A DNA stretch of 64,000 bases from Megasphaera coli (lineage in GTDB: Bacteria > Bacillota > Negativicutes > Veillonellales > Megasphaeraceae), in NCBI RefSeq assembly GCF_900095855.1, contig NZ_FMIY01000002.1, positions 425,322-489,321 of the forward strand, in the 5' to 3' direction. The notes under the pieces are model-generated. The model saw only the letters and a program-made list of their open reading frames with translations, made no database searches and was not told the origin of the DNA. This document shows, one piece after another, positions 19,292-39,564 of this stretch; position 1 is the first letter of the stretch; every line of letters begins with the position of its first letter. A program made the translations under genes and the position numbers.

Positions 19292-20158
19292 ATGAAAACC
19301 GGAGGAAGTATTATAAGAGGAGCCGTAACAGTGACGGCGCTGCTGACAATCGGCGTTTTCCTGTTCCTATTCCTCTTTATCGGTTATGAAGGAATGCCCG
19401 TCTTTTCCCTGACCGGCGGGTACACGTTTTTATTTACAACCGCCTGGAATCCGACGGCGGCACGCCCGGAGCTGGGAATCGGTACGATGATTGCCGGCAG
19501 CCTCTACGTTTCTTTTCTTGCCGTTCTCATGGCCTTGCCTTGCGGCGTGGGCTGCGCCGTGTATATCATCTTTTGCGCACCCCGACGGTGGCGGGAAATG
19601 CTCCTTTCTTTCATTGATTTAATTGCCGGTGTGCCTTCCGTTATTTTCGGCTTCATCGGCCTGACGACGGTGGTCAGGTTTATGGAACGAAGCCTGTCCG
19701 TGTCGACGGGCGAGTGCGTCCTTGCGGCGGCCGTCGTTTTGGCCGTTATGATTTTGCCCTTTATTGTCGCCAATTGTGCCGAATCCGTGTGCTCCGGCAG
19801 AGAACGCTATGAAGAGGCGTCTCTTGCTCTCGGCGTCGACAAATGGCACATGATTATGCATCTTTTGCCCCGTCATTTGAGGGAAGCGCTGACAGTTTCT
19901 CTTATCCTTTCTTTTGCCCGGGCCACGGGTGAAACCATGGCCGTCATGATGGTTATGGGAAATGCGGCCGTCATGCCGACACTTCTGGGTAAGGGCGAGT
20001 CCGTGCCGGCGCTCATCGCTTTGGAAATGGGCAGTGCCGAATACGGCAGTCCTCATTATCATGCCCTCTATGCGGCAGGTATGGTGCTCATGGCCGTGCT
20101 CATATTGTCAAACCTTCTTTTCTATTACATTAAAAGACGGGGAGGCGGAGAGCGGTGA
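19292..20158 (+). CDS. pstC: Phosphate ABC transporter permease PstC
   Basis: A 288-residue inner-membrane permease with about six membrane helices and the EAA loop EEASLALGVDKWHMIMHLLPRHL that contacts PstB. GFIGLTTVVRF and SFARATGETMAVMMVMGN are typical of PstC. It starts 5 bases after pstS and overlaps pstA by 4 bases (ATGA-like junction around GTGA), so translation is coupled. Works with PstA and PstB to import phosphate. Confidence 0.93.
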   Translation: MKTGGSIIRGAVTVTALLTIGVFLFLFLFIGYEGMPVFSLTGGYTFLFTTAWNPTAARPELGIGTMIAGSLYVSFLAVLMALPCGVGCAVYIIFCAPRRWREMLLSFIDLIAGVPSVIFGFIGLTTVVRFMERSLSVSTGECVLAAAVVLAVMILPFIVANCAESVCSGRERYEEASLALGVDKWHMIMHLLPRHLREALTVSLILSFARATGETMAVMMVMGNAAVMPTLLGKGESVPALIALEMGSAEYGSPHYHALYAAGMVLMAVLILSNLLFYYIKRRGGGER

Positions 20159-20970
20159 AGAGGGCGGGACTTATCTTTTTCGTCTATGTGACGGCTTTTC
20201 TCGTCCTTGCGGCGACGGCCTTTATTTTTGTGAAAATCCTTGCCGAAGGGATCCGGGTTATGACCTGGGACTTTATCTTCGAATTTCCCCAAGGTATGCC
20301 GCCCGGTACGGCCGGCGGCATTTTTCCGGCTATCGTCGGCTCGCTGCTGTCGGGCCTCGTCGCGGCGGTTGTGGCGTCCTTTACGGCCATTGCCCTTGCG
20401 GCGTGGCTGACTTTCTTCTGTATGAACAGGACGGTTTACAGGATTTGCCGTTTTTGCACGGAATGCGTATCGGGCATACCGTCTATCTTGCTCGGCCTTT
20501 TCGGGTACAGTTTTTTTCTCATGCATTTGGGCGTGCCCAAAAGCGTATTGACGGCGGGCCTGACCTTGGCGATTATGATCGTTCCCTTTATAGCCGTTCG
20601 GGCAGAGAAGATTTTTCGCGAATTTTCTGTCGCTCAAATCGAGGCGGCTGAAGCGCTGGGTGTATCAAAGGCCTATATTCTCGTGACGCTCATTATACGG
20701 AAGCAAGTGCGGCAGCTGGCTACGACCGTTGCTCTGGCAACGGCTTACGCCATGGGAGCGGCGGCACCGGTCATGTTTACGGGAGCCGTCCTGTACGCTC
20801 GTGAATTGCCGGGCCTTGCGGATCCTTTTATGTCCCTGCCGTATCACCTGTACATCCTCGTCAGCGAGGGCTATTCCTTAAACATGGCATACGGCACGGC
20901 CTTCGTCCTGCTTATTATGCTTCTGGGGATCAACATTCTGTGTCGCTTTGCCGGAAGATCGGGGAGGTAA
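20155..20970 (+). CDS. pstA: Phosphate ABC transporter permease PstA
   Basis: A 271-residue permease partner of PstC with six hydrophobic helices, the ISPSI-like segment CVSGIPSILLGLFGYSFF, and an EAA loop EAAEALGVSKAYILVTLIIR. Starts with GTG 20155, overlapping the pstC stop by 4 bases. Its end is two bases from pstB's ATG. The whole pstSCAB block is one operon; a Pho box was not clearly visible upstream of pstS. Confidence 0.92.
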   Translation: MKRAGLIFFVYVTAFLVLAATAFIFVKILAEGIRVMTWDFIFEFPQGMPPGTAGGIFPAIVGSLLSGLVAAVVASFTAIALAAWLTFFCMNRTVYRICRFCTECVSGIPSILLGLFGYSFFLMHLGVPKSVLTAGLTLAIMIVPFIAVRAEKIFREFSVAQIEAAEALGVSKAYILVTLIIRKQVRQLATTVALATAYAMGAAAPVMFTGAVLYARELPGLADPFMSLPYHLYILVSEGYSLNMAYGTAFVLLIMLLGINILCRFAGRSGR

Positions 20971-20972
20971 GG

Positions 20973-21716
20973 ATGGAACGCGAAATTTCTATACAAAATG
21001 TGTCCGTTTCAGCCGGTAAAAAAGATATTTTGCAGAAAGTGAATCTGGACATTTACAAGCATGCCGTTACGGCCGTTATCGGCATGTCCGGCTGCGGTAA
21101 GACGACACTCCTGCGGACACTTAACCGCATGCACGGTCCGGCCCTTCACTTGTCGTCCGGACAGATTCTTTTGGGCGGCTGCAATATATTCGGCATGCCC
21201 ATAGGCGACGTGCGCAAGCAAATAGGCCTCATTCAGCAGCAGCCGACGGTTTTCCCCTTTTCCGTCCGCAAGAATATGACGTACGCCCTGAATTATCACG
21301 GCATTACGGCCAAGGAAGAACAGGAGGAGCGCCTGGAAGAGGCCTTGAGGCAGGTCGGCCTTTATGAAGAAGTAAAGAACAGGCTGAGCGAAGGAGCGGC
21401 GGCTCTTTCGGGCGGCCAGCAGCAACGGCTTTGCATAGCCCGTGCCTTGACACTAAGGCCCAAGGTCCTGCTTCTCGACGAACCGTGTTCGGCCCTTGAT
21501 ATAAAGAACACGCTCATCGTGGAGCGTACGCTGAAAAAATTGAAAGAGAATTGCACCATAGTCATTGTGACACACAACCTGTCACAGGCAAAGCGCATTG
21601 CCGACTTCGCCGTCTACATGGAAGGCGGTACGGTCGTGGAAACGAAAGAAAGCGGTCAATTATTTTCACAGCCTGCAGATAAGCGTACGCGTGAGTATAT
21701 GAGCTATATACAATAG
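20973..21716 (+). CDS. pstB: Phosphate ABC transporter ATP-binding protein
   Basis: A 247-residue ABC ATPase. Walker A is IGMSGCGKTTLLRTLNRMH (the LNRM extension is typical of PstB), Q-loop IGLIQQQPTVFPFS, signature LSGGQQQRLCIARAL and Walker B VLLLDEPCSALD. ATG 20973 follows GGGGAGGTAAGG, the ribosome site overlapping the pstA stop. Last gene of the pst operon; 120 bases of apparently gene-free sequence follow before yedF. Confidence 0.93.
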   Translation: MEREISIQNVSVSAGKKDILQKVNLDIYKHAVTAVIGMSGCGKTTLLRTLNRMHGPALHLSSGQILLGGCNIFGMPIGDVRKQIGLIQQQPTVFPFSVRKNMTYALNYHGITAKEEQEERLEEALRQVGLYEEVKNRLSEGAAALSGGQQQRLCIARALTLRPKVLLLDEPCSALDIKNTLIVERTLKKLKENCTIVIVTHNLSQAKRIADFAVYMEGGTVVETKESGQLFSQPADKRTREYMSYIQ

Positions 21717-21836
21717 GCCGCGCCGGACGCAACTTTCGGTTCCTGTATGTTGAATATGCGCTCCAACGATTCTATAATAAATACGACGCCTTACAGACGT
21801 CCCTGATTTCACGAGTTACCTGAGGGGGAACAGAAA

Positions 21837-22427
21837 ATGTTTAAAGTAAATGCCGTAGGCTTGGCTTGCCCGTTGCCTGTCATTGAAACAAGAAAAGCCT
21901 TAAAGGATAACGACCGGGTTGAAACGACCGTAGATAATGAAATCGCAACGGAAAATTTACGTAAAATGGCCAATCAACTCGGTTTTACCTATGAATTGAA
22001 GAAGGAAAGCGAAAAACGCTTCGTCGTAACTATTACAAAGGCGGACAACGCTGAAAAAGCGGGGCAGCCCGAAGCGGCGACAAAAGACGGCGATGAATAT
22101 ATTGTCGTTATTGATTCCGTGACGATGGGAAACGGTGACGAACAATTCGGCGAGAATTTGATGAAAACATTTATTTACACCCTTACGGAACAGGACGTCT
22201 TGCCGAAACAGATTATTTTCTACAACGGCGGGGTTCCTCTCATCACGGAAGAATCGGAAGCTTTGACGGATTTGAAGAAACTTGCCGCTGCAGGAGTTAA
22301 GATTTACGGCTGCGGTGCGTGTTTGAATTTCTACGGCTTAACCGATAAAGTCGGAGTCGGTGAAATTACGAATATGTTTGCAATCGTGGAAATGATGCGT
22401 AAAGCCTATCGCATCATCAAGCCGTAA
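21837..22427 (+). CDS. yedF: YedF-type selenium-metabolism protein (TusA-like plus DsrE-like)
   Basis: A 196-residue two-domain protein of the sulfurtransferase-like selenium metabolism family YedF. Residues 1-70 are TusA-like with the sulfur/selenium-carrying cysteine in GLACPLPVIETRKAL. Residues ~85-196 form a DsrE/DsrF-like fold, with a second candidate cysteine pair in YGCGACLNFYGL. In many genomes this gene accompanies selD/selA, as here. A role as selenium carrier to selenophosphate synthesis is inferred from linkage. Its stop TAA overlaps the ATG of the next gene. Confidence 0.9.
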   Translation: MFKVNAVGLACPLPVIETRKALKDNDRVETTVDNEIATENLRKMANQLGFTYELKKESEKRFVVTITKADNAEKAGQPEAATKDGDEYIVVIDSVTMGNGDEQFGENLMKTFIYTLTEQDVLPKQIIFYNGGVPLITEESEALTDLKKLAAAGVKIYGCGACLNFYGLTDKVGVGEITNMFAIVEMMRKAYRIIKP

Positions 22428-22693
22428 TGGCCGAGACGGAACGGTACGGTGTAGCGCTCCTGCAATCGACGCGTGATGCCATGACCGTAGAAGAAGCGGC
22501 TAAAAAAGCGGGACTTGCGGTCCGAATTATACCGACACCGTCAAAAATTTATGCAAGCTGCGGCTTTTCGCTGAAATACGATCTTGGTGACGAGGCGTGT
22601 TTGGCGGACTTGCTGAATGAATTGGGACTTTCCGTCGACGGTTCTTACCATGCCGAACGGAAGGGCTTGTCCGTGTCTTATACGAAGATATAA
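22427..22693 (+). CDS. DUF3343 family protein, putative Se/S carrier
   Basis: An 88-residue small protein of the DUF3343 family (annotated in domain databases as putative Se/S carrier protein-like). It shows the family features: a start that binds substrate-like (YGVALLQSTRDAMTVEEAAKKAG) and a central ASCGFSLKYD with the conserved Cys-Gly. It overlaps yedF through TAATG and precedes selA, so the three are probably one selenium-handling operon. Biochemical function has not been shown for this family as far as I can state; the carrier role is inference. Confidence 0.82.
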   Translation: MAETERYGVALLQSTRDAMTVEEAAKKAGLAVRIIPTPSKIYASCGFSLKYDLGDEACLADLLNELGLSVDGSYHAERKGLSVSYTKI

Positions 22694-22733
22694 GTCGACA
22701 GCGCAGAAGAAGGAAGAAAGCAGGTGTGAATTC

Positions 22734-24137
22734 ATGGAAGAAACACAAAAAATATTGTCCCGCTTGCCGAAGGTCGATTTATTTTTAAGTCGGCCGTCCG
22801 TAAGCACCTTGGCCGAAACGTATTCGGCAGGTCTTGCAAAAGAAGCGGTACAATCCGTTTTGGCGGAGGTACGGCAAGCAATTCTCGCCGGTACGCGTGC
22901 GGACATACCGACGGACGGCGAATTGGAAAAAATGGTTTCCGAATACTTGAAAGAGCGGGAGACCTTTCATTTGCGCCGCCTTATCAACGCGACGGGAACG
23001 GTTTTGCATACGAATTTGGGACGCTCCATTTTAAGTAAAGCCGTCAGTCGTCACGTGGCGGCAGTTGCAACGAGTTATTCCAACTTGGAGTATGACTTGG
23101 AAGCGGGCGGCCGCGGTTCACGGTACAGCCATCTGACACGTATGTTGTGCAGGCTTACGGGGGCCGAAGACGTCCTTGTTGTCAACAACAACGCCGCAGC
23201 GGTCATGCTTGTCCTGAATACGCTTGTGCCGGGGAAGGAAGTCGTCATTTCCCGGGGCGAACTTGTGGAGATCGGCGGATTTTTCCGTATTCCCCAGGTT
23301 ATTGAGCACAGCGGCGGTATAATTCGTGAAGTCGGTACAACGAACAAGACCCACCTGGCCGATTACAAATCGGCCGTTACAGAGAATACGGGTGCTCTCA
23401 TGAAGGTGCACACCAGCAATTATCACATTATCGGCTTTACTCAGAGCGTAGGTACGGACGAACTGGCCGCTTTGGCGCATGCCGAAGGACTGCCGTTGAT
23501 CAATGATTTAGGCAGCGGCCTGCTCATTGATATGACCCGCTTCGGCCTTCCTTATGAACCGACCGTCAAGGAAGCCCTGCAGAACGGCTGCGACATTGTC
23601 ACCTTCAGCGGCGACAAACTTCTCGGCGGTCCGCAGGCGGGGATTATTGTCGGTAAGAAAGAATACATTCAGGCTATGAAAAAAAATCAGCTCCTCCGTG
23701 CCCTGCGCGTGGATAAAATGGTCATAGCCGCGTTGGAAGCGACGTTCCGTTCCTACCTCGACGAAGAATGGGCCGTCCGTGAAGTACCGGTTCTGCAAAT
23801 GCTGGCATTGACCAAGGAAGACTGTTACCGCAAGTGCGAGCAATTTATTGCGGCTCTTGAGGAAGAGCGCCTGCCCGTTACGGCGGAAATAGTCGAAGTG
23901 ACGGACATGGTCGGCGGCGGCTCCTATCCGGAGTATACCATGCCGAGCTATGCCGTGGCGCTTACCGTAAATGGCGTGGCGGCCGCGGAAATTGAGCGGC
24001 GCCTGCGCTTGATGGAAATTCCCGTCATCGCGCGCGTCCAGCATGATAAAGTATGTTTTGCCGTACGGACCATACAGGAAAATGAAGGGCTTATTATTTG
24101 CCGCAATTTGGAACGAATTTGTGCGGATCTGGCCTAA
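22734..24137 (+). CDS. selA: L-seryl-tRNA(Sec) selenium transferase
   Basis: A 467-residue PLP enzyme converting seryl-tRNA(Sec) to selenocysteyl-tRNA(Sec) with selenophosphate. Visible are RRLINATGTVLHTNLGRS, the YSNLEYDLEAGGRGSR segment, and FSGDKLLGGPQAG with the PLP lysine at residue 295, the same number as in Escherichia coli SelA. ATG 22734 follows AAGGAAG/CAGG; the longer in-frame upstream stretch runs into DUF3343. Grouped with yedF and DUF3343, 11-18 kb from selB and tRNA-Sec in the same window. Confidence 0.96.
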   Translation: MEETQKILSRLPKVDLFLSRPSVSTLAETYSAGLAKEAVQSVLAEVRQAILAGTRADIPTDGELEKMVSEYLKERETFHLRRLINATGTVLHTNLGRSILSKAVSRHVAAVATSYSNLEYDLEAGGRGSRYSHLTRMLCRLTGAEDVLVVNNNAAAVMLVLNTLVPGKEVVISRGELVEIGGFFRIPQVIEHSGGIIREVGTTNKTHLADYKSAVTENTGALMKVHTSNYHIIGFTQSVGTDELAALAHAEGLPLINDLGSGLLIDMTRFGLPYEPTVKEALQNGCDIVTFSGDKLLGGPQAGIIVGKKEYIQAMKKNQLLRALRVDKMVIAALEATFRSYLDEEWAVREVPVLQMLALTKEDCYRKCEQFIAALEEERLPVTAEIVEVTDMVGGGSYPEYTMPSYAVALTVNGVAAAEIERRLRLMEIPVIARVQHDKVCFAVRTIQENEGLIICRNLERICADLA

Positions 24138-24186
24138 AGAGCCATTCCTGCCGAGGCGCGCGTTTTACGTGAAGTGTAATACAGTC

Positions 24187-24224
24187 CGCAAAGGCCGCAA
24201 GGCTTTTGCGCGGCTGTTTATTTG
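24187..24224 (+). terminator. Possible selA terminator
   Basis: CAAAGGCC-GCAA-GGCTTTTG forms an 8 bp hairpin within a longer CCGC...GCGG stem followed by TGTTTATTT, about 50 bases past selA and just before the IS200-type element. Confidence 0.55.
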
Positions 24225-24290
24225 GCGCCGAACAGGCATGACTAAACCCCCAGTTTACTGGGGGAGCAAAAAATACTTATAGAAAAAGAA

Positions 24291-24354
24291 GGAACCTCCT
24301 GTGTTAGAATGATGATGGTCTGGCAACCACATCACATAACGGATAGGAGGTTCA
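24291..24354 (+). promoter_or_regulatory. Leader hairpin hiding the tnpA ribosome-binding site
   Basis: GAACCTCCT (24292-24300) is exactly complementary to AGGAGGTTC (24345-24353), which contains the Shine-Dalgarno for the ATG at 24361. Internal segments GATGATGGT and ACCACATC extend the stem. This is the arrangement known from IS200, where the transposase ribosome site is sequestered and translation is kept very low. Confidence 0.8.
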
Positions 24355-24360
24355 CTGTCA

Positions 24361-24825
24361 ATGAATGACGTACAAAGCTTATCACACAGTAAATGGAGAT
24401 GCAAATACCATATCGTATTTGCGCCCAAATATAGAAGACAAGCTATATATGGGACCATAAAGGTGGATATAGGAAAAATATTGCGGGAGTTGTGCACCCG
24501 GAAGCACGTAGAAATACTGGAAGCAGAATGTTGTCCGGATCATATCCACATGCTGGTGACAATACCACCACATCTAAGTGTATCCGGTTTCATGGGATAT
24601 CTAAAAAGTAAGAGCAGTTTAATGATATTTGATAAACATGCAAACTTAAAATATAAGTATGGCAATAGACATTTCTGGTGTCGGGGGTACTATGTGGACA
24701 CGGTAGGAAAATACGAAGGTGCGATAAAAACCTATATCCGACAACAACTGCAGGAAGATATAGCACAGGACACGTTGGATTTCAAAGAGTATGTAGACCC
24801 GTTTACGGGTAAGAAGAGTACATAA
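24361..24825 (+). CDS. tnpA: IS200/IS605-family Y1 transposase
   Basis: A 154-residue HUH transposase that moves single-stranded copies of the element. The HUH pair is in CCPDHIHMLVTIPP, and the nucleophilic tyrosine lies in RGYYVDTVG, followed by the helix KYEGAIKTYIRQQ. HSKWRCKYHIVFAPKYRR at the N-terminus is the usual family start. Full length and uninterrupted, so it may be active. Its ribosome site is sequestered in a leader hairpin. Confidence 0.95.
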   Translation: MNDVQSLSHSKWRCKYHIVFAPKYRRQAIYGTIKVDIGKILRELCTRKHVEILEAECCPDHIHMLVTIPPHLSVSGFMGYLKSKSSLMIFDKHANLKYKYGNRHFWCRGYYVDTVGKYEGAIKTYIRQQLQEDIAQDTLDFKEYVDPFTGKKST

Positions 24826-25018
24826 GTAGGCAAAGAAAGAGCCCCCGAGGAGGGGGCTACCAGTAACAGTGATGTGATTGCCGGATTTTATTCAGTGCAC
24901 CATTTGGTGCTACCACAAGAGATAGACCCTTATAGGGTCAGAGCAAACCACCAGTTCTACTGGTGGTTATGATTTTGACCGAAATCGGTCGTCTTTATAA
25001 AAAGGAGGAACTCTTCTT

Positions 25019-25135
25019 GTGCAGGATGAAGAGATAGCAGACGTGACGGACTATATTAATGAGAACGGCTGCGTGTATGAGCGTATCGTGCCATTGAAGA
25101 AACAAATCAATCCGCAGCGCGATAAATTCTGTTAA
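25019..25135 (+). CDS. Small unknown ORF (38 codons) after the IS200 element
   Basis: A GTG-initiated reading frame, MQDEEIADVTDYINENGC... to ...QRDKFC, ends with TAA. AAGGAGG lies 11 bases upstream, a good ribosome site at slightly long spacing. The composition is protein-like (acidic N-terminus, basic C-terminus, final residue Cys). I do not recognise it. It may be a small selenium- or proline-related gene, or the 3' remnant of a gene cut by the insertion; the hairpin GACCGA-AA-TCGGTC just before it could be a terminator. Conservation in relatives lacking the IS would settle it. Confidence 0.4.
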   Translation: MQDEEIADVTDYINENGCVYERIVPLKKQINPQRDKFC

Positions 25136-25173
25136 AAAAATAAAAAAAGCAGATTCATAATAGGGGTACTTGT

Positions 25174-25203
25174 TTACTCAAAACCATATATGTTATACTT
25201 TAA
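25174..25203 (+). promoter_or_regulatory. Possible sigma-A promoter for proS
   Basis: TTGTTT and TATACT are separated by 18 bases (TTGTTT at about 25169-25178, TATACT near 25195-25201), about 85 bases before the proS start. The leader has the hairpin-forming GTGATTTAATTCAC but no T-box elements. Confidence 0.45.
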
Positions 25204-25288
25204 TAAATTTAGTGATTTAATTCACGATTCTCTATAACTACTTTACATGGTTTTAGAGAAAGCACACCATAAACAGGAGGTCATGCGT

Positions 25289-27016
25289 ATGTTAGCGTCA
25301 CAATTATATTGCCCTACCTTGCGGGACGATCCTGCAGAAGCCGATGTTGTCAGTCATAAACTGATGTTGAAGGCCGGTATGATTCGCAAGAGTGCGGCAG
25401 GTTTGTATTCTTTCCTGCCCTTAGGGCGTCGGGTCGTACTTAAAATTGAAGCCATTGTACGCCGCGAAATGGATGGAGCAGGGGCGCAGGAGGTTATGAT
25501 GCCTATTGTACAGCCTGCGGAAATTTGGAAAGAAACGGGTCGCTGGGATGTATACGGACCGGAAATGTTCAAGCTTTCCGACCGCCACGACAACGAATAC
25601 TGTTTAGGGCCGACGCACGAAGAACTTATAACGACGCTCGTACGCAGTGAACTGCGTTCGTATAAGCAGCTTCCTGTCAACCTCTACCAGATGCAGAACA
25701 AGTATCGCGACGAAATTCGGCCGCGTTTCGGTCTCATGCGCAGCCGCGAATTTGTCATGAAGGATGCGTACACCTTTGATATCGACAAGGCGGGCATGAT
25801 CAAGAGCTATGAAAATATGTATAACGCATATTGCCGTGTCTTTGATGCATGCGGCCTTGACTATCGGCCCGTCCTGGCCGACTCCGGCCAAATCGGCGGT
25901 AATTACAGTCATGAATTTATGGCTCTTGCCGAGGCCGGCGAAGCGGACATCGTCACGTGTAATGAATGCGGTTTTGCAGCGAACGTGGAAAAAGCTGTGC
26001 CGAAAGCGCTCATAGGAAAAAAAGAAGAGCTGCGGGAAGCGGAATGTTTTGCTACACCGGCATGTGCGACCATACAGGACCTCGTCGAGGTGACGGGTAC
26101 GCCCGTTGAAAAGACGATTAAGGCCGTTGCCTTCGATATTGACGGCAAACTCGTTCTCGTCATGGTTCGCGGCGATCATGAAGTAAATGACGTAGCCGTA
26201 CAGAACCTTGTGGGGGGCAACGAAGTAACGCCGGCAACACCCGAACAGCTCCGTGCCCACGGTTTGGAACCGGGCTACATGAGTCCTTTGAATGCAGGAA
26301 AGCAGGGTGATGATTTCGTCATCCTGGCGGACGAAACGGTCATGCACATTTATAACGGCGTAACGGGAGCCAATAAACACGGCTACCATTATCGCAACGT
26401 AACGCCGTCACGTGACTTTACAAACGTTACGGTCGGTACGGTCCGACTCATTACGGAACACGATGAATGCCCCGAATGCGGCGGTCATGTTCAGTTGACA
26501 CAGGGAATTGAAGTGGGCCAGGTCTTCGGCTTGGGAACAAAATACTCCGAAGCGCTGCACGCAGGCTTCCTCGACAAAGACGGTCAATCCAGGCCCTTCT
26601 ACATGGGCTGCTACGGCATCGGCGTCACGCGCACCATGGCGGCGGCTATTGAACAGCTCCATGATGATAACGGCATTATATGGCCCGTCGCCATTGCGCC
26701 CTATGAAGCGGTCGTCCTACCGGTCAACGTGAAGGACGCCGAAATGGCGGCCGTTGCGGAAGGCATTTATAAAGAACTGCAGGCCGCAGGTGTCGATGCG
26801 ATTTTCGACGACAGGGAAGAGCGGGCAGGCGTTAAATTTAACGATGCCGATCTCATCGGTTACCCTGTACGTGTTACCGTCGGCAACACGGTAAAGGACA
26901 CGGGAGAAGTTGAAATTAAACTGCGCCGTTCCGGTGCGGAAGAACAGGTCACCGTTGCCGAGGCGGCAAAACGTGTTTGTGAAATCCTGACGGAATTACG
27001 CAATAAGAATATGTAA
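25289..27016 (+). CDS. proS: Prolyl-tRNA synthetase, bacterial type with editing domain
   Basis: A 575-residue class II synthetase charging tRNA-Pro. Motif 2 region RDEIRPRFGLMRSREFVMKD and motif 3 GCYGIGVTRTMAA are intact; residues ~220-400 hold the YbaK-like insertion domain that hydrolyses alanyl-tRNA-Pro. The C-terminal anticodon-binding domain follows. I start it at ATG 25289 (MLASQLYC), 8 bases after GGAGG; ATG 25283 would be too close. It has its own terminator yet directly precedes the D-proline reductase operon, so the two main consumers of proline are neighbours. Confidence 0.95.
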   Translation: MLASQLYCPTLRDDPAEADVVSHKLMLKAGMIRKSAAGLYSFLPLGRRVVLKIEAIVRREMDGAGAQEVMMPIVQPAEIWKETGRWDVYGPEMFKLSDRHDNEYCLGPTHEELITTLVRSELRSYKQLPVNLYQMQNKYRDEIRPRFGLMRSREFVMKDAYTFDIDKAGMIKSYENMYNAYCRVFDACGLDYRPVLADSGQIGGNYSHEFMALAEAGEADIVTCNECGFAANVEKAVPKALIGKKEELREAECFATPACATIQDLVEVTGTPVEKTIKAVAFDIDGKLVLVMVRGDHEVNDVAVQNLVGGNEVTPATPEQLRAHGLEPGYMSPLNAGKQGDDFVILADETVMHIYNGVTGANKHGYHYRNVTPSRDFTNVTVGTVRLITEHDECPECGGHVQLTQGIEVGQVFGLGTKYSEALHAGFLDKDGQSRPFYMGCYGIGVTRTMAAAIEQLHDDNGIIWPVAIAPYEAVVLPVNVKDAEMAAVAEGIYKELQAAGVDAIFDDREERAGVKFNDADLIGYPVRVTVGNTVKDTGEVEIKLRRSGAEEQVTVAEAAKRVCEILTELRNKNM

Positions 27017-27049
27017 GACGCAGTATATGCCTCATATATGTTGAGCGGA

Positions 27050-27074
27050 AGAGTCCCTTTCCGGGGCTCTTTTT
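27050..27074 (+). terminator. Terminator of proS
   Basis: AGAGTCCC-TTTCC-GGGGCTCT followed by TTTT is a clear intrinsic terminator isolating proS from the prd operon. Confidence 0.88.
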
Positions 27075-27184
27075 GTTTTGGATTACGGCAGGAAATTTAT
27101 TAAAAAAACTAATAAAGTGAAATGTATAACGAATATATATAAGGTTGCTTGTAAAATATGGTTTCATGTGATAATATCATAGGC

Positions 27185-27243
27185 GTGAATAATAAAAATT
27201 TTGAAAGGGACGAAATTCATCCCTGAAAAGTTCTTTTATTCAC
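27185..27243 (+). promoter_or_regulatory. Structured leader upstream of prdC
   Basis: GTGAATAA...AAAA at 27185-27197 pairs with TTTTATTCAC at 27234-27243, enclosing an inner AGGGA/TCCCT stem. The hairpin ends 27 bases before the prdC start. Upstream, TGTGATAAT (27163-27175 area) could be an extended -10. No T tract follows, so it is not a simple terminator. Role unknown; a leader or operator function is inference. Confidence 0.45.
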
Positions 27244-27270
27244 GAAATATATCTGGGAAGGGGGGTGAGA

Positions 27271-28566
27271 ATGAAAATGACAGAGATAAAAATACCACTC
27301 AGAATGCACGTCGGCGGTCCCTGTAAACCGATTGTCGAAGCAGGCGATCGCGTGAAGCGGGGACAGCTCATTGCCGAACCTGACGGGCTGGGTGCGAATA
27401 TTCACGCAAGCTATACGGGTGAAATCAAGGAAATTACGGACAACGAAATTGTCATTACGGCTGATGAAAATCAGGACTTTGATGAATATGTCCGTATTCC
27501 CGATACGAAGACGAACCTTGAAGCCATCGCGGCTGCAGGTGTTGTCGGTGCCGGCGGTGCCGGGTTTCCGACGGCTGTTAAGCTGAAGACGGAAATCCCC
27601 GAGGGTGCATTTATTGCCAACGCAGCGGAATGTGAACCGCTTTTGGCTCACAACATTCATCAAATCGAAGAAGATGCGGCACAACTGGTTCGCGGCGTCA
27701 AGTACTGTATGGAAATTACAAAAGCGCCGAAAGCGTATATCGCTATAAAACCGAAGCATAAAAAAGCGGTCATCGAATTGATTAAAGCGACAAAAGACGA
27801 ACCGTATATTGACGTCTTCCGTTTGCCCGATATGTATCCGGCCGGTGATGAACGCGTTATCGTTCGCGAAGTCATGGGTATCGAATTGGAACCCGGTCAG
27901 TTGCCCGGCACGGTAGGAGCCTGTATCGACAACGTGGAAACGATCAAGAACATTGTTCAGGCAATTGAAGAACGTAAGCCCGTTATCGATAAAGATGTCA
28001 CCGTTTCGGGGCGCGTACAACGCAAGGAATCGGTTTACGTCAATGTACCTATCGGCACCCCGATGAAGGTTTTGATCGATAAATCGGGCGGTTTTGTTAA
28101 CCCCCACGGTGAAATCGTAATCGGCGGTCCCATGACGGGAAGACCCGGCTCGGAAGACTCTCCGGTCACCAAGACGAGCGGCGGGTGTCTCGTTGCAATG
28201 CCGTTTCCTCAGGAAAAACGCAAAGCGGGCATTCTTATTTGTGAATGCGGCGGTTCGGAAGAACGGCTGACACAAATTGCCGAATCGATGGGTGCCGAAG
28301 TAGTTTCCAAAGAACGTTGCAAGAGAATGGTAGAAGTTAATGGACGATACAGATGCGGCTTACCGGGGATATGTCCCGGCCAGGCGGAAAAGGTCATGGC
28401 CTTGAAACGAGGCGGTGCGCAAGTATTAGTAGTCGGAACCTGCTCCGAATGAACGAACACCGTTATGGGTGTAGCTCCTAGGTTAGGAGTTCCGGTTTAT
28501 CATCATACAGACCATGTTCTGCGAGCTGACGGTCACAAGCTGTATCGGTCATTACCATCCACTTAA
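27271..28566 (+). CDS. prdC: PrdC, proline reductase-associated electron transfer selenoprotein (in-frame TGA = Sec)
   Basis: An RnfC-like protein supplying electrons to D-proline reductase. VGAGGAGFPTAVKL and NAAECEPLLAHN are the RnfC-type flavin/NADH-binding signatures, and CRCGLPGICPGQ looks like a cysteine cluster. A TGA at 28450-28452 would end it at GTCSE, but the frame continues as TNTVMGVAPRLGVPVYHHTD and on to TAA at 28564, 37 more residues. Selenocysteine-containing PrdC proteins are known from clostridia. Read through, it has 431 residues, with Sec at 394. Tandem hairpins follow the TGA. Start ATG 27271 follows AAGGGGGG. First gene of the operon. Confidence 0.9.
28453..28489 (+). 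promoter_or_regulatory. Candidate bacterial SECIS of prdC
   Basis: Directly after the TGA come two small hairpins: ACACC/GGTGT (28457-28472) and CTCCTA-GGT-TAGGAG (28475-28489). The second has a GGT apical loop 22-37 bases past the TGA, the distance and loop character expected of a SelB-binding element. Which one SelB binds is not known. Confidence 0.6.
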
Positions 28567-28590
28567 ATTTTCACAAGGAGGATTTAACGA

Positions 28591-30510
28591 ATGTCTATTA
28601 CAGCTGAAACAGCGCAAGAACATGCAAAAGATCCTGCAGTATTATGCTGCCGCGCTGAAAGCGGTACGGTATTGTCCGCTTCCAACTTGGAGGATCCCAA
28701 TATTTTCCCGGATTTGGAAGAATCCGGCTTGCTGACAATTCCCGATAATGTATGCCACATCGGCGAAGTTATCGGTGCAACACTCAAAGTAACGGCAGAT
28801 TCTCTCGTTGCTTTAACTCCCGATATGCTCGACGGCCTTCAGGCTATGGAAGCTCCTGCAGCGGCAGCTGCGGCACCTGAAGAAAAAACGGCAGAGGCCG
28901 CACCTGCAGCTGCAGACGTAGCGGCAGCTGTTCCGGTTGCAGGCGCTGCGGTAGCAACTGTAGGCGGCTCCGTACGTATTCATATCGGTGAAGGGAAGAA
29001 TATCGATCTCGAATTTCCTCTCGGCGGCGGTATTGCGGCTCCCGCGGCTGCAGTTCCGGCAGCAGCTGCAGCGGCAGGTGCCACTTCGGCGGCAACCGGT
29101 GAAGCCGTGGCGGCAGTAGCTGCCGAGTCCGCTCAGGAACCCGTTAAGGTTCGTGCACTTCGTCATGACCACTTGAAGATTGAAAATGTCGTCTTCGGCG
29201 ATGAAACGAAAATTGAAGGTACGACGCTGACAATCCGTAAAGACGGTATTTGTGAAGAAGCCGTTGAAACACAGGAACTCGTTGAACAACTCGAACTCGA
29301 TATCATCACGCCGGACCGTTACGGTGAAGTTTCCAATACGATTATGGACGTACAGCCGATTGCCACGAAAATGGAAGGCGATTTGGGTGAAGGCATTACC
29401 CGTGTATTGGACGGCGTAGTTTTCGTCGTATCCGGTACGGATCATGACGGCGTTCAAATCGGTGAATTCGGTTCTTCCGAAGGCGAAATGGACCGCAACA
29501 TCATGTGGGGCCGTCCGGGTGCTCCCGACAAGGGTGAAATCTTCATTAAGACGAACGTAACCATCAGAGCGCATTCCAACATGGAACGCCCCGGTCCTTT
29601 GGCGGCGCACCGCGCATCCGATTACATTGCGCAGGAAATTCGTGAAGCAATTAAAAAAGCGGATGATTCGTTGGTAGTTGAAAAAGAAGAAATCGTTCAA
29701 TATCGTCGCCCCGGTAAACCCAAGGTTCTCGTTATCAAAGAAATCATGGGACAGGGTGCGATGCACGATAATCTGATTCTGCCGGTTGAACCGGTCGGTA
29801 CGTTGGGCGCAAAACCGAACGTCGACCTCGGCAACCTGCCCGTATTGCTCAGCCCGCTTGAACTCGTCGACGGCGGCATTCATGCGTTAACCTGCATCGG
29901 GCCCGCTTCCAAAGAAATGTCCCGCCATTACTGGAGAGAACCGCTGGTTCATTTGGCAATGCGCGATGAAGAAATCGACTTGGTCGGCGTCATGCTCGTA
30001 GGTTCTCCTCAGGCCAACTCCGATAAGTTCTACGTTTCTCGCCGCGTCGGCCAGACCGTTGAATGCATGGGCATTGACGGTGCTATCGTAACGACGGAAG
30101 GTTTCGGCAATAACCACGTTGACTTCGCATCTCATATCGAACAAATCGGTAAACGCGGTGTCAAAGTTGTGGGCGCTTCGTATTGTGCCGTTCAGGGCGC
30201 CTTGGTTGTCGGCAATAAGTACATGGGTGCCATGTGCGACAACAACAAGTCCAAGCAGGGCATCGAAAACGAAATCCTGTCCAATAACACGCTCTGCGAA
30301 GAAGATGCCGTTCGCCAGCTCGCTATGCTCAAAACCTTGCTCGGCGGCGGTGAAATTAAGGCTGCGGAACGTAAATGGAACAATAACGTCAAGCTGAACA
30401 ACATTGAAATTATTGAAAAGACGACGGGCAAGAAAGTTCCTCTCGTAGATAACGAACAAGTATTGCCGAAGAGCAAGAAGCGTCTTGAAAAATACGAACC
30501 GGAAGCATAA
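28591..30510 (+). CDS. prdA: D-proline reductase proprotein PrdA
   Basis: A 639-residue proprotein of D-proline reductase, which reduces D-proline to 5-aminovalerate in Stickland fermentation. In this family PrdA self-cleaves before a cysteine that becomes the pyruvoyl cofactor; the matching site here is HALT|CIGPASKEMSRHYW, with Cys at residue 435. The N-terminal ~85 residues form a separate domain, followed by two alanine-rich linkers (about 87-127 and 148-180). ATG 28591 follows AAGGAGG. It acts with the selenoprotein PrdB. Confidence 0.96.
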   Translation: MSITAETAQEHAKDPAVLCCRAESGTVLSASNLEDPNIFPDLEESGLLTIPDNVCHIGEVIGATLKVTADSLVALTPDMLDGLQAMEAPAAAAAAPEEKTAEAAPAAADVAAAVPVAGAAVATVGGSVRIHIGEGKNIDLEFPLGGGIAAPAAAVPAAAAAAGATSAATGEAVAAVAAESAQEPVKVRALRHDHLKIENVVFGDETKIEGTTLTIRKDGICEEAVETQELVEQLELDIITPDRYGEVSNTIMDVQPIATKMEGDLGEGITRVLDGVVFVVSGTDHDGVQIGEFGSSEGEMDRNIMWGRPGAPDKGEIFIKTNVTIRAHSNMERPGPLAAHRASDYIAQEIREAIKKADDSLVVEKEEIVQYRRPGKPKVLVIKEIMGQGAMHDNLILPVEPVGTLGAKPNVDLGNLPVLLSPLELVDGGIHALTCIGPASKEMSRHYWREPLVHLAMRDEEIDLVGVMLVGSPQANSDKFYVSRRVGQTVECMGIDGAIVTTEGFGNNHVDFASHIEQIGKRGVKVVGASYCAVQGALVVGNKYMGAMCDNNKSKQGIENEILSNNTLCEEDAVRQLAMLKTLLGGGEIKAAERKWNNNVKLNNIEIIEKTTGKKVPLVDNEQVLPKSKKRLEKYEPEA

Positions 30511-30530
30511 AACTTCTGCGGAGACAGATA

Positions 30531-30824
30531 ATGGCTGAACACGAGTTAAGGTACATGTCCAGTGAGTCCATGTACGAAGGAGTTATTGTGGAACTGCATG
30601 ACGGCAGCGTCGGCATCGACTTGAAAGGCCGCTTGGGCCACTTGCGCATACCGAAACGCATGATTATCTCCGATTACGATTTGAAGCTCGGACAGGAAGT
30701 GGGGTTTCTCATGTCCTACCCGGAAGTCTTCAACGAAGAACCGGCGGAACATTATGTGAAAGCTATCGAGTACAGGGATAAGCTTCGCGAAGAAGCGAAG
30801 CGCAAAAACTCTGAAAGCAAATAA
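30531..30824 (+). CDS. Small conserved protein between prdA and prdB
   Basis: A 97-residue soluble protein, MAEHELRYMSSESMYEG..., predicted mostly beta with a charged helical C-terminus. A small gene at this position recurs in clostridial proline reductase operons (I believe the CBO2463/CBO2479-type family), but I know no assigned function. It begins 20 bases after prdA with GGAGACAG upstream and ends 18 bases before prdB, so it is clearly part of the operon. Its conserved position suggests a role in reductase assembly or cofactor maturation; that is inference. Confidence 0.78.
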   Translation: MAEHELRYMSSESMYEGVIVELHDGSVGIDLKGRLGHLRIPKRMIISDYDLKLGQEVGFLMSYPEVFNEEPAEHYVKAIEYRDKLREEAKRKNSESK

Positions 30825-30842
30825 GAGAGGAGACAAATTGTT

Positions 30843-31568
30843 ATGAGTTTAACAGTTTTTGAAGGCTTACAGTCCGAGATTTATGTGCCTATTACACCTA
30901 AATCCGTCTTCACGCCTGTAACCAAGCCTTTAAACGAAATGGTCATCGCCCTTGCATCCGCTTGCGGTGCCCATCTGAAAAGCGACAAACGCTTCAATCT
31001 TGCAGGGGACACGAGTTTCCGTGAAATCCCCGATTCGACGCCGACGAGCGAATTGATGATCTCTCACGGCGGTTACGACAACAGTGATGCAAACAAAGAC
31101 ATTAACTGCATGTTCCCCCTTGACCGGCTGCATGAGCTTGCGGCGGCAGGATTCATTAAGGGAACGGCTCCGACCCACTTCGGTTTCATGGGCGGCGGCG
31201 GCGACCAGGAAGCATTTAAAGAAAAGACCGGTCCCGAAATCGCTAAGAGACTGAAAGAAGAAAACGTCGACGGCGTTATTATGACAGCCGGGTGAGGTAC
31301 TTGCCACAGAACTGCCGTGATCGTGCAGAGAGCTATTGAAGAAATCGGTATCCCGACTATCATTATTGCAGCATTGCCGCCTGTTGTACGTCAAAACGGT
31401 ACACCGCGCGCTACGGCTCCTATCGTTCCGATGGGTGCGAACGCTGGCGAACCGCATAATATTGAAATGCAGACGGGCATCGTCAAGGACACGCTTATCC
31501 AGCTTGAAGAAATTGAAACGCCGGGTAAGATCGTTCCCTTGCCGTATGAATATGTAGCGCAAATCTAA
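30843..31568 (+). CDS. prdB: D-proline reductase selenoprotein subunit PrdB (in-frame TGA = Sec)
   Basis: The catalytic selenoprotein subunit. The frame runs from ATG 30843 to a TGA at 31293-31295 and continues without break to TAA at 31566. Around the TGA it reads MTAG-U-GTCHRTAVIV, the known PrdB selenocysteine context; Sec is residue 151 of 241, close to the Sec152 reported for the clostridial enzyme. Sec attacks the alpha carbon of the PrdA pyruvoyl-bound D-proline, then reforms through the nearby Cys (U-G-T-C). AGAGGAG precedes the start. Confidence 0.96.
31296..31335 (+). promoter_or_regulatory. Candidate SECIS of prdB
   Basis: Within 40 bases after the TGA, CTGC (31312-31315) can pair with GCAG (31325-31328) around a CGTGATCGT loop, the size and distance typical of bacterial SelB-binding hairpins inside the coding region. 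The exact fold needs modelling. Confidence 0.45.
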
Positions 31569-31608
31569 TTTGTTGTTGCGAGATACTTTGGAAAAGCAGG
31601 TGTTGAAT

Positions 31609-32346
31609 ATGCATGGTGAACCGTTAAAGATCAAGGTTTTTCATATGGAAGACGTACGGTTGGGGACATCCTTTAAATTGGAACCGAAGCGTCTGACCGT
31701 GCCGGAACACTTTGATCATGCATGCGAAATGATTGAACAGCTGAAGATTCAAGTATTACCTCCGCATCAGCACGATGTAGAAACCAACACCATCATGGAT
31801 GTGATTCCCATATCCACGAAGGTGTTGGGCCCCATCGGGGCAGGTATTACCCATACGTTGACCGGTGTGTATGTCGTCGTGTGCGGCGCTATTGAAGACG
31901 GCGAGCAGCTACATGAATTCGGTTCGTCCGAAGGTATACTCAAAGAGAATATGAAGTTTGACAAAATAGGTACACCGCGAGATAATGATTATATCATTCT
32001 TATAGATGCGCTTGTGAAAAAAGGTACTGCTTTTACTCGTGAAACCTGTATGAAAGTATTTGAACTCGTAGATAATTATATTCAGGAAATCAGGGAGCCC
32101 TTAAAGCTTCTTGACGGGCGTGACGCAGTGGAATCGCATACGTATACGGAGAATTATCATCCCGGTAAGCCGAAAGTCGCCGTTATTAAAGAAGTGGCCG
32201 GCCAGGGCGCCATGTACGATACCTTGGTATTTCCTCTTGAGCCGAGCGGGTTTAAAGGGGGAGTATCCATCATTGATATGAACAATATGCCGGTTCTGTT
32301 GTCGCCGAACGAATATCGTGACGGCGCAATCCGTGCAATGGATTAA
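31609..32346 (+). CDS. prdD: PrdD, homologue of the PrdA N-terminal chain
   Basis: A 245-residue protein from ATG 31609, preceded by AGCAGGTG. Its sequence follows the PrdA beta-chain block by block: TNTIMDVIPISTKV against NTIMDVQPIATKM, LHEFGSSEGIL against IGEFGSSEGEM, HPGKPKVAVIKEVAGQGAMYD against a PrdA stretch with KPKVLVIKEIMGQGAMHD, and LLSPNEYRDGAIRAMD at the very end. It stops exactly where PrdA is cleaved. Known component of clostridial prd operons; its biochemical role is unsettled. Confidence 0.9.
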   Translation: MHGEPLKIKVFHMEDVRLGTSFKLEPKRLTVPEHFDHACEMIEQLKIQVLPPHQHDVETNTIMDVIPISTKVLGPIGAGITHTLTGVYVVVCGAIEDGEQLHEFGSSEGILKENMKFDKIGTPRDNDYIILIDALVKKGTAFTRETCMKVFELVDNYIQEIREPLKLLDGRDAVESHTYTENYHPGKPKVAVIKEVAGQGAMYDTLVFPLEPSGFKGGVSIIDMNNMPVLLSPNEYRDGAIRAMD

Positions 32347-32373
32347 TCGGAACGGGAAAGTGGAGGTGTCGTT

Positions 32374-32847
32374 ATGGGTATCGGACCGTCAACAAAGGAA
32401 ACGTCCAAACATTATTTTCAGGATCCGCTGATTGATGTATTTGCCGATGATCCGGAAATTGATTTTCGAGGTGTCATCGTCGTAGGAACTCCGCAGGACA
32501 ACAGGATGAAGCATCTTGTCGGCCAGCGCGCTGCCGTGTGGCTCAAGGCCATGGGCTGCGCCGGTGCGGTTATCTCCGCCGACGGCTGGGGCAATTCGGA
32601 TGTCGATTTCGCCAATACGATGCAGCAGGTCGGAGATCGCGGAATCAGTATTGTAGGGCTCAAATTCATAGGCAAACAGGCGAAGTTCGTTGTAGAAAAC
32701 AAGTATACCGACCGAGTCTTGGACATGAATAAATCGGCCGAAGGTATTGAGACGGAGATAGTCGGGGAAAATGCCGTAGACAGGATTGATGCGATTAAGG
32801 CTTTAGCAGCAATCAAATTAGTGATGCGCAAAGATAAGAAGTTTTAA
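32374..32847 (+). CDS. prdE: PrdE, homologue of the PrdA C-terminal chain
   Basis: A 157-residue protein aligned with the PrdA alpha chain. MGIGPSTKETSKHYF corresponds to TCIGPASKEMSRHYW, so the start Met occupies the Thr and Gly the pyruvoyl-forming Cys position; no pyruvoyl group can form here. Further matches: GVIVVGTPQ/GVMLVGSPQ, SADGWGNSDVDFA/TTEGFGNNHVDFA. Start ATG follows GTGGAGGTG. PrdD and PrdE together therefore represent a PrdA-like pair encoded as two genes. Confidence 0.9.
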   Translation: MGIGPSTKETSKHYFQDPLIDVFADDPEIDFRGVIVVGTPQDNRMKHLVGQRAAVWLKAMGCAGAVISADGWGNSDVDFANTMQQVGDRGISIVGLKFIGKQAKFVVENKYTDRVLDMNKSAEGIETEIVGENAVDRIDAIKALAAIKLVMRKDKKF

Positions 32848-32868
32848 AACGACAAGGGAGGTAAAAAC

Positions 32869-33888
32869 ATGAAGTATGCAAGAATGCTTACAGCCATCGA
32901 TTCGCATACGGCCGGTGAAGCGGCACGCCTGATTATCGGCGGCGTTACGAAATTCCCGGGCAAGACAATGGCTGAAAAGAAGATTTATCTGGAAAAACAC
33001 GAAGATAACTTGCGTAAAGCCGTTATGCTCGAGGCAAGAGGGCATCAGGACATGTTTGGCGCATTTATTTGTGAGCCCGTCCATGATGAAGCCGACTACG
33101 GTATTATTTTTATGGATTCCGGCGGATATCTGAACATGTGCGGCCACAATACGATTGCCGCTATGACGGCTGCCGTTGAATGCGGCTGGGTTCATGTCAA
33201 ACCCGGCGATCGGGAAGTACCGGTTGTACAGGATGCTCCTGCAGGTATTATTCGCGGTCATGTTCATTTGAAAGACGACTATGTTGTCGATTCCGTATCT
33301 TTTGAAAATGTCGAATCCTTCTTGTACAAAGAAAACGTAGAGGTCGATGTTCCCGAACTGGGTAAAAAAATTCATTGTGACATTTCTTTCGGCGGCAGCT
33401 TTTTCGCTATTTTGCCGGCAACGGAAGTAGATCTCGATATTTGCCCGGAAAACGCGAGCAAGTTCTCTAAAATCGGCCTGATCATCCGTGATGCCGTCAA
33501 TAAACAGGTTGAAATTCAGCATCCTACCTTGGAACACATCAAGACGGTCGACCTCGTTGAATTTTACGGACCGCCCAAGAGCTCCGACGCAACGTATCAG
33601 AACGTTGTCGTCTTCGGTGAAGGATCTGTCGACCGTTCTCCCTGCGGCACCGGGACAAGCGCAAAAGTTGCTACGCTCCATGCCAAAGGTGAATTAAAGG
33701 TCGGGGAACACATTATTTATGAAAGCATTTTAGGTACAAAATTCAAAGGTGAGGTCTTGAAAGAAACGACTATTGCCGGTCGTAAGGCTATTATTCCGAG
33801 AATTACGGGATCTGCTTACATTAACGGCTTTAATACGTTTTTAGTGGATCCGGACGATCCCTTAAAAGACGGCTTTATCCTTGGCTAA
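32869..33888 (+). CDS. prdF: Proline racemase PrdF
   Basis: A 339-residue PLP-independent racemase converting L-proline to D-proline, the substrate of PrdA/PrdB. Both catalytic thiols are present: motif I YLNMCGHNTIAA and motif II DRSPCGTGTSAK. A Cys in both positions marks racemases; trans-3-hydroxyproline dehydratases have Thr in the second. Start ATG 32869 follows GGGAGG. It lies 21 bases after prdE. Confidence 0.96.
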   Translation: MKYARMLTAIDSHTAGEAARLIIGGVTKFPGKTMAEKKIYLEKHEDNLRKAVMLEARGHQDMFGAFICEPVHDEADYGIIFMDSGGYLNMCGHNTIAAMTAAVECGWVHVKPGDREVPVVQDAPAGIIRGHVHLKDDYVVDSVSFENVESFLYKENVEVDVPELGKKIHCDISFGGSFFAILPATEVDLDICPENASKFSKIGLIIRDAVNKQVEIQHPTLEHIKTVDLVEFYGPPKSSDATYQNVVVFGEGSVDRSPCGTGTSAKVATLHAKGELKVGEHIIYESILGTKFKGEVLKETTIAGRKAIIPRITGSAYINGFNTFLVDPDDPLKDGFILG

Positions 33889-33906
33889 TATTAGGGGGTT
33901 ATTCTT

Positions 33907-34821
33907 ATGGTAGTTAATGTATTACTCGGTTTATTAGGGATTTTATTTGTTTACTACTTTATTTTCTATGTACGCGATTTGATGAATCATAAAGGTGATT
34001 GGGGCGAAGGCAATGTGCCTATCAACCTTTTCATCGGTTTTATTACGAACTTCCTTGATACGTTGGGGATCGGTTCTTATGCGACGACGACAATGCTGCT
34101 CGGCGTGACGAAGCAGCTCAAGAGCGACAAGCTTCTGCCCGGCACGTTGAACGTTGCCGATACGATTCCCGTATTGATCGAAGCGTTCCTCTTCATCTCT
34201 GTTGTAGAAGTCGAATCGGTAACGTTGTTTTCCCTGATCATTGCAGCTATTATTGGCGCTGTTATCGGCGGCAAGACCGTTCCGAACCTTTCAGAAAAGA
34301 AAGTACAGACTTACTTGGGCTTCGCACTGCTCATTACGGCACTTCTTATGCTCGGCAAACAGCTCGGCCTCATGGCTTTCCTCGGCACGGGCAACACGGC
34401 TATGGGCTTGGAAGGACCGAAACTTATTCTTGCAGTCGTGTTGAATTTGATCTTCGGTGCCTTGATGACCATCGGCTGCGGTTTGTACGCACCTTGCATG
34501 GCTATGGTTTATCTTCTCGGTTTGAACCCGATTGTAGCATTTCCCGTTATGATGGGTTCCTGCGCGGCACTCATGCCCGTTGCATCCAAGGAATTCATCG
34601 TTTCCGGCGTATATGCACGTAAAATCAGCGTTATCATTGCAATCAGCGGGATTTTCGGTGTCGTCGTGGCAGCTAAACTGGTTCAGAGCATGGATCTCAA
34701 CATCCTTACGTGGCTCGTCATTATCGTTGTTATTTACACGGCCTTCATGTATATTCGTAAAGGCCTGAAGAATAAAGAAGAAGCGGCTCCTGCAGGAGAA
34801 GATGACAACTTCCAGGGCTAA
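33907..34821 (+). CDS. TSUP (TauE/SafE-like) membrane permease
   Basis: A 304-residue membrane protein with about eight hydrophobic helices arranged as two repeats (NFLDTLGIGSYATTTMLLG near residue 50 and LYAPCMAMVYLLGLNPIVAF near 200), the pattern of the TSUP family (sulfite/organic anion exporters). The C-terminus is short and acidic. It starts 18 bases after prdF with AGGGGG and precedes a terminator, so it is the last prd-operon gene. Export of 5-aminovalerate or transport of proline or selenium/sulfur oxyanions are all conceivable; nothing in the sequence decides. Confidence 0.8.
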   Translation: MVVNVLLGLLGILFVYYFIFYVRDLMNHKGDWGEGNVPINLFIGFITNFLDTLGIGSYATTTMLLGVTKQLKSDKLLPGTLNVADTIPVLIEAFLFISVVEVESVTLFSLIIAAIIGAVIGGKTVPNLSEKKVQTYLGFALLITALLMLGKQLGLMAFLGTGNTAMGLEGPKLILAVVLNLIFGALMTIGCGLYAPCMAMVYLLGLNPIVAFPVMMGSCAALMPVASKEFIVSGVYARKISVIIAISGIFGVVVAAKLVQSMDLNILTWLVIIVVIYTAFMYIRKGLKNKEEAAPAGEDDNFQG

Positions 34822-34854
34822 AAGCCGAGATTTTTCAGTATAAAGTGCTGATGA

Positions 34855-34894
34855 AAAACCCGATTTCTATTATAATAGGAATTGGGTTTTTTAT
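34855..34894 (+). terminator. Terminator of the prd operon
   Basis: AAAACCCGATTTCTAT pairs with ATAGGAATTGGGTTTT across a four-base loop; a T-rich tail follows. It closes the prd operon and separates it from selB. Confidence 0.88.
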
Positions 34895-34926
34895 TTTGGC
34901 ACCTATGCGCGTGGAGGAAATGAAAT

Positions 34927-36846: not shown

Positions 36847-36962
36847 TATAATATGGGCATGGACCGTAAATGTTACTGTACGTCTCACCGATCTCGTAGT
36901 ATGATTAACATAAAAAGCTCCGCATATATAATATGGAGCGAAATGAAAAGAGGGATACACTT

Positions 36963-38366: not shown

Positions 38367-38418
38367 GCGGCCTGCCTGATAGATATATTCTTACATTTTA
38401 ATATAAGGAGGGTTTAGT

Positions 38419-39498: not shown

Positions 39499-39509
39499 GT
39501 TGATACGGG

Positions 39510-39548
39510 AGAGCCGTGCTGCACCGAAATAGGCACGGCTCTTTTTTT
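39510..39548 (+). terminator. Terminator after the Xaa-Pro peptidase
   Basis: AGAGCCGTGC and GCACGGCTCT form a 10 bp stem with a loop of about 13 bases and a run of T residues. The T run ends only a few bases before the ribosome site of the next gene. Confidence 0.88.
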
Positions 39549-39564
39549 GAGAGAGGAGATATGC

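Follow-up and report, generated by a model that had tools for sequence, protein, structure and literature searches.

The prdC gene in the window (the whole stretch of 64,000 nucleotides of Megasphaera coli DNA analysed here) very probably encodes a selenoprotein of 431 residues, in which SelB bound to an mRNA hairpin would bring about selenocysteine insertion at the UGA at 28450 and the resulting CxxU pair would re-reduce PrdB. The frame runs from ATG 27271 through 393 codons to TGA 28450-28452 and then through 37 further codons to TAA 28564-28566, which agrees in every coordinate with an earlier note on this DNA when checked against the sequence and its readthrough translation. The list of open reading frames gives 395 amino acids ahead of the TGA, with an upstream GTG (27265) as the start, and the readthrough product has the context GTCSE-U-TNTVMGVAPRLGVPVYHHTD. 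The features of the gene are these:

27271-28566, plus strand: prdC, predicted selenoprotein of 431 residues (393, selenocysteine and 37; TAA included), from the readthrough translation and TIGR04481
28450-28452, plus strand: TGA predicted to encode selenocysteine as residue 394, within the motif CSEU (CxxU), from the column comparison of 47 PrdC
28453-28563, plus strand: C-terminal tail of 37 codons after the selenocysteine, from pN/pS
28457-28472, plus strand: first hairpin, less conserved, from pairing counts
28473-28491, plus strand: predicted bSECIS hairpin with 8 bp in the stem and a GGU loop (28481-28483), 28 nt past the UGA, from folding and pairing counts

An open frame past a TGA is weak ground on which to build. 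With uniform codons, a 37-codon open run has a chance of about 17%, and of the 10 open stretches on both strands of the 64,000-nt window that end in TGA and span 200 codons or more, 4 continue for at least 37 codons, prdC being one of them. Since 3 of the other 9 are equally open, antisense or overlapping frames among them, the openness of the tail was rejected as stand-alone evidence. To that extent the count lends something to the reading of the TGA as an ordinary stop, with a PrdC of 393 residues and, behind it, an open tail that is a product of chance or a decayed remnant. Such a stop would, however, delete the second half of the CxxU motif together with a modelled helix (residues 392 to 405), and the homologues and the tail itself speak against it strongly enough that we consider it extremely improbable.

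Homology is decisive for the reality of the readthrough frame, because the NCBIfam model for PrdC, TIGR04481, matches across the whole length with the tail included (582.9 bits, cut-off 490; residues 7-428 on profile positions 2-424 of 425), as the earlier note had anticipated in saying that the tail fits the known PrdC C terminus. Merging copies from 15 loci of a genome-collection scan, 21 places above the cut-off in a class-level search of 300 genomes and 17 such places in a phylum-level search of 398 genomes gave 47 PrdC, the window included, an uneven sample in that the genome-collection scan favours window-like sequences. The column of residue 394 holds TGA in 20 of the 47, TGT in 18, TGC in 9 and no other codon, and no extracted PrdC stretch has a second in-frame TGA. 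All 47 continue past this column, none ending at the equivalent of residue 393, and cysteines 324, 326, 350, 362, 368 and 391 are invariant in 47/47, as is Cys/Sec at 394. The five nearest relatives share 94-95% of the tail residues with the window and 77-88% of those in the body. Neither of the two observations that the earlier note had named as refuting its reading, homologues that stop at this point and an unconserved tail, was thus borne out.

Among six Veillonellaceae sequences (the window and five relatives), codons 19-34 after the selenocysteine have a pS of 0.609 and a pN of 0.036, a ratio of 0.059, compared with a pS of 0.707 and a pN/pS of 0.185 in the PrdC body. Selection thus acts on the tail as protein, the sequence past the TGA being coding as it had appeared to be, and this conservation refutes an ordinary stop. 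Relatives with cysteine codons do exist, so that a sequencing error or a point mutation could have turned TGT or TGC into TGA in this genome. That proposal is refuted by what the relatives share: 20 PrdC from different genera have both TGA and the hairpin, and TGA stands at residue 394 in each of the five nearest relatives, which leaves the proposal a negligible probability. In a tree of PrdC with the Sec residue masked, a single branch with a support of 100/100 separates the 20 Sec forms from the rest.

Two hairpins follow the TGA directly, as the earlier note had seen, and the second of them is the candidate signal for selenocysteine insertion. Folding of 28450-28500, a stretch that the note had proposed to fold, gives a z of -2.02, a level attained by 5 of 200 shuffles, and the fold of 28470-28492 has an MFE of -8.4 kcal/mol and a z of -2.87; by itself, this folding strength is modest. 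According to the available part of PMC13188914, the bSECIS model has a loop of 3-9 nt, an upper stem of 4-16 bp, a G within the first two loop positions, a distance of 16-37 nt from the UGA and an MFE of at most -7.5 kcal/mol, and the prdC hairpin falls within each of these bounds with its GGU loop, 8 bp, 28 nt and -8.4 kcal/mol. Folding by itself discriminates poorly, as illustrated by the stretch after the prdB UGA, which does no better than its shuffles (z 0.07), and we therefore relied on comparison. Standard pairs fill 152 of 160 cells of the stem (95.0%) in the 20 Sec forms, near copies included (16 distinct 48-nt stretches), against 102 of 216 (47.2%) in the 27 Cys forms, and when the 3' strand of the stem is displaced by 1-3 bases, 31.2-48.1% of cells in the Sec forms remain paired. 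The loop opens with GG in 19 of the Sec forms and with GT in the other one. The first hairpin (28457-28472) is paired in 83/100 cells of Sec forms and 61/135 of Cys forms and is broken in several distant Sec forms. Most pairs of the bSECIS stem hardly vary, so that it shows conservation and not covariation, which is scarce (one pair with a single two-sided change, another with a few). Rfam, searched over window positions 20000-40000 at E <= 5, gave five matches, all under their gathering scores and none to a SECIS family.

Codon usage over the hairpin bears the mark of the same constraint. In the six Veillonellaceae, codons 7-14 after the selenocysteine have a pS of 0.091 with zero replacement changes, from which we conclude that the RNA itself is constrained there, and at codons 8-12 synonymous identity is 1.00 in 14 Sec forms against 0.23-0.57 in 17 Cys forms. 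The 14-codon window right after the selenocysteine ranks 7th of 433 by synonymous identity in the six Veillonellaceae and 11th of 379 in nine diverse Sec forms, against 248th of 343 in Cys forms. When the six Veillonellaceae are taken from the 47-row alignment, each of the top 15 of 429 fourteen-codon windows overlaps the hairpin, with synonymous identities of 0.81-0.95; the highest value entirely upstream of it is 0.708. The tenth residue after the selenocysteine is arginine in 20/20 Sec forms and 0/27 Cys forms, and the twelfth is glycine in 20/20 and 9/27, respectively, a pattern that fits an RNA signal fixing amino acids and that shared descent of the Sec clade would explain in part. Homologue comparison, tail selection and the hairpin thus support the central claim of the earlier note, that prdC has an in-frame UGA and makes a selenoprotein.

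That the protein is PrdC and not the RnfC subunit of an Rnf complex follows from family scores and gene context. The case for RnfC lies in a match to its model TIGR01945 (221.3 bits) and in the best PDB structural matches, which are RnfC chains, the top one being 9eri_C over 331 columns; Pfam likewise finds an RnfC barrel-sandwich domain and a Nuo51 FMN-binding domain, with a sub-threshold match to SLBB. Yet the RnfC score is below its cut-off of 245.95 while that for PrdC is above its own, and the gene adjoins prdA and prdB, both over their NCBIfam cut-offs, so that the RnfC reading is refuted and, in our estimation, most unlikely. The PrdC assignment is further framed by neighbours that comprise proS, prdA, prdB, prdD, a gene like the PrdA C-terminal part, a proline racemase-like gene, a TauE-like gene and selB, with selA upstream:

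22617-24137, plus strand: selA, PF03841 505.9 bits; the true start is probably inside the open reading frame
28591-30510, plus strand: prdA, D-proline reductase proprotein, TIGR04480 986.4 bits (cut-off 700)
30531-30824, plus strand: 97-aa open reading frame between prdA and prdB, conserved in relatives
30843-31568, plus strand: prdB, selenoprotein with TGA 31293-31295 as residue 151, TIGR04483 404.9 bits (cut-off 300); TGA in relatives
31570-32346, plus strand: prdD, TIGR04482 362.9 bits (cut-off 320)
32374-32847, plus strand: prdE-like, resembling the PrdA C-terminal part, TIGR04480 positions 415-564, 163 bits (below cut-off); presumably prdE, going by gene order
32869-33888, plus strand: proline racemase-like, NF010576 502.7 bits (below cut-off 556); taken to be prdF, again from its place in the gene order
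34927-36846, plus strand: selB, TIGR00475 334.4 bits (cut-off 242.25)
40612-40708, plus strand: selC, tRNA-Sec with anticodon tca, ARAGORN

The 97-aa open reading frame has no Pfam match; relatives occupy the same place in 14 of 15 scan loci, the remaining locus stopping before that place, and the E. raffinosus gene there is named "CBO2463/CBO2479 domain protein". Between selA and proS, positions 24361-24825 of the window hold a small transposase-like open reading frame, which we take to be of IS200/IS605 type, with a relative only in L052 (84%) among 20 loci. In Lutispora (L011:10328-11533), a single PrdA-like stretch stands in place of the separate prdD and prdE of the window and is possibly a fusion of the two.

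The genome encodes SelA, SelB, SelD and tRNA-Sec, with selD elsewhere (G000:C1:1219446-1220369) and itself containing an in-frame TGA. PrdB, GrdA and GrdB have one in-frame TGA apiece, and counting PrdB, PrdC, GrdA, GrdB and SelD, each with a single in-frame TGA, the genome has at least five selenoproteins. The description of PrdC as a second selenoprotein thus holds for the operon and falls short for the genome.

Cysteine replaces selenocysteine throughout some related clusters. Within the same genus, a Cys-type prdC occurs in five genomes, and in four of these five, those for which prdB was seen (L003/L049, L051, L052 and L054), prdB has TGC at the Sec codon. As a side observation, a second prdC-prdA-prdB cluster with cysteine in both PrdC and PrdB lies at L049:5681-9956 and L051:6227-10510 and also in L052 and L054, all from the Megasphaera group; in L051, its PrdA, PrdB and PrdC each score above the NCBIfam cut-off. 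Two of the five genomes, those of Anaeroglobus geminatus and M. cerevisiae, carry both Sec-type and Cys-type prdC, which stand in tandem in M. cerevisiae. The Cys cluster may be a backup that needs no selenium, or its reductase may act on another substrate.

Such clusters would accord with a UGA that acts as a selenium sensor, giving selenocysteine when selenium is ample and, under shortage, a truncation at residue 393 that purposely lowers PrdC. Truncation at unfilled Sec codons is generally expected, which adds to the appeal of this idea. In the genome itself (89.94% complete), however, we found only the Sec-type prdC and no all-cysteine cluster, with one PrdC-model match above the cut-off, and the B-subunit model matched only GrdB and PrdB, both with TGA. 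We regard a sensor function as unlikely. Three further PrdC-model matches, located elsewhere in the genome and below the cut-off, could hold its RnfC.

A separate observation concerns Enterococcus termitis and Listeria farberi, which share a block of about 15.5 kb (L091-L094; L007, L008) that is 94.8-96.1% identical between mostly unrelated flanks. It consists of selC, prdC-A-B-D-E-F, a TauE-like gene, selD, a yedF-like gene, selB, a gene that we take to be cysteine desulfurase-like, and selA. In the Listeria copy, selD scores above its cut-off. The selA open reading frame has 465 aa in Listeria and 195 aa in E. termitis, so that the E. termitis copy may be damaged or misassembled. Unless one of the assemblies is contaminated, the block represents a recent transfer. 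It is conceivable, and we put it forward tentatively, that prd together with selA, selB and selC (in Listeria also selD) forms a self-sufficient block moving between distant Firmicutes orders, that the SECIS fixed PrdC residues and that the Cys cluster could work without selenium. Plasmid-borne prd-sel clusters are in print, in the accessible portions of the reports, for Terrisporobacter (PMC10564238) and Lactobacillus salivarius (PMC4165912). In Table 2 of the latter, a proline reductase gene of pMP1046A that sits where prdB is expected is called a probable pseudogene, and, as far as this table goes, the call may have been caused by an in-frame Sec UGA.

We propose that SelB on the hairpin at 28473-28491 would deliver Sec-tRNA(Sec) to UGA 28450, where selenocysteine would be inserted and translation would run on to TAA 28564; for Megasphaera coli, we infer this insertion from the comparisons above. 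PrdC would then combine an RnfC/NuoF-like, NADH- and FMN-binding front with a Cys-rich C-terminal domain that carries C391-S-E-U394. Electrons would probably pass from NADH to the flavin, perhaps over an Fe-S or cysteine-bound centre, and on to the CxxU pair, the presumed path to proline reductase. After D-proline cleavage, the CxxU pair would restore PrdB by reducing its selenenyl-sulfide, a step modelled by analogy on the 2010 proposal for C. sticklandii in the part of PMC3091704 available to us. An AlphaFold model of the whole protein with the TGA as cysteine has a mean pLDDT of 90.1, and its helix 392-405 starts within the CxxU motif; the last 119 residues modelled alone reach 77.0. For this C-terminal domain (window positions 28207-28563), a structural search of the PDB gave no match at E <= 0.001, which makes the Fe-S centre a guess; a profile search of PDB sequences had a best E of 0.42, and Pfam matches were all below cut-offs. 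A known Fe-S or thioredoxin type was set aside for the domain as unsupported by the structure, profile and Pfam searches.

These results secure a full-length PrdC in a bacterium of the Megasphaera group and a complete selenium-dependent proline fermentation set in its lineage. The Sec/Cys contrast at synonymous sites offers a clean natural case in which an RNA signal takes precedence over the choice of codons and amino acids, and a genome with both a Sec-type and an all-cysteine prd cluster would allow a direct test of what selenium contributes to proline reduction. The expectation that automatic annotation would cut the protein at the TGA fails for the RefSeq plasmid records of E. raffinosus and E. 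gilvus, where the prdC CDS spans the TGA; a third record has no annotation at the prdC place. Simpler annotation pipelines may still cut PrdC short.

Among the matches listed, the literature on Megasphaera selenoproteins and proline reductase held no title on prdC of the Megasphaera group. PrdC as a CxxU selenoprotein was described in 2010 for Clostridium sticklandii, with Sec 392 of 428, whereas PrdC of Clostridioides difficile has cysteine, in the portion of PMC3091704 that was accessible; the earlier statement that clostridial PrdC can carry selenocysteine is hence right for the former species, where it has long been in print, and does not extend to the latter. Reviews list PrdC among the selenoproteins as well, and the available parts of PMC13188914 and PMC9312934 distinguish PrdC forms 1 and 2. 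In form 2 (UPGQ, as excerpted from PMC13188914), a member of the same family has its selenocysteine at the CPGQ cysteine; the corresponding residue here is Cys 368, and the selenocysteine would lie at 394. RnfC has in common with PrdC the FMN/NADH-binding front half (PDB 9eri_C, 331 columns), but a Cys-rich C-terminal domain of its own, which bears the CxxU, and a place in a proline reductase operon set PrdC apart. PrdC of C. difficile (PMC3091704) and of the Terrisporobacter plasmids (PMC10564238) is of the same family with the same C-terminal CxxC/CxxU site and, going by the accessible text of both sources, has cysteine in place of selenocysteine; the 27 Cys forms compared here, with C. difficile outside them, do not keep the SECIS hairpin as a group. 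The closest counterpart is form 1 of C. sticklandii, with the same operon, a CxxU near the C terminus (392/428 in the available account, 394/431 here) and the same kinship to RnfC, and the gene in the window likewise has its in-frame TGA in the C-terminal CxxU with cysteine in other homologues. Selenocysteine-containing PrdC is therefore a kind already known, of which the present protein is a well supported, ordinary example, set apart from the C. sticklandii form by a host of the Megasphaera-group Veillonellaceae and by the presence of selA, selB and selC in the same stretch as prdC.
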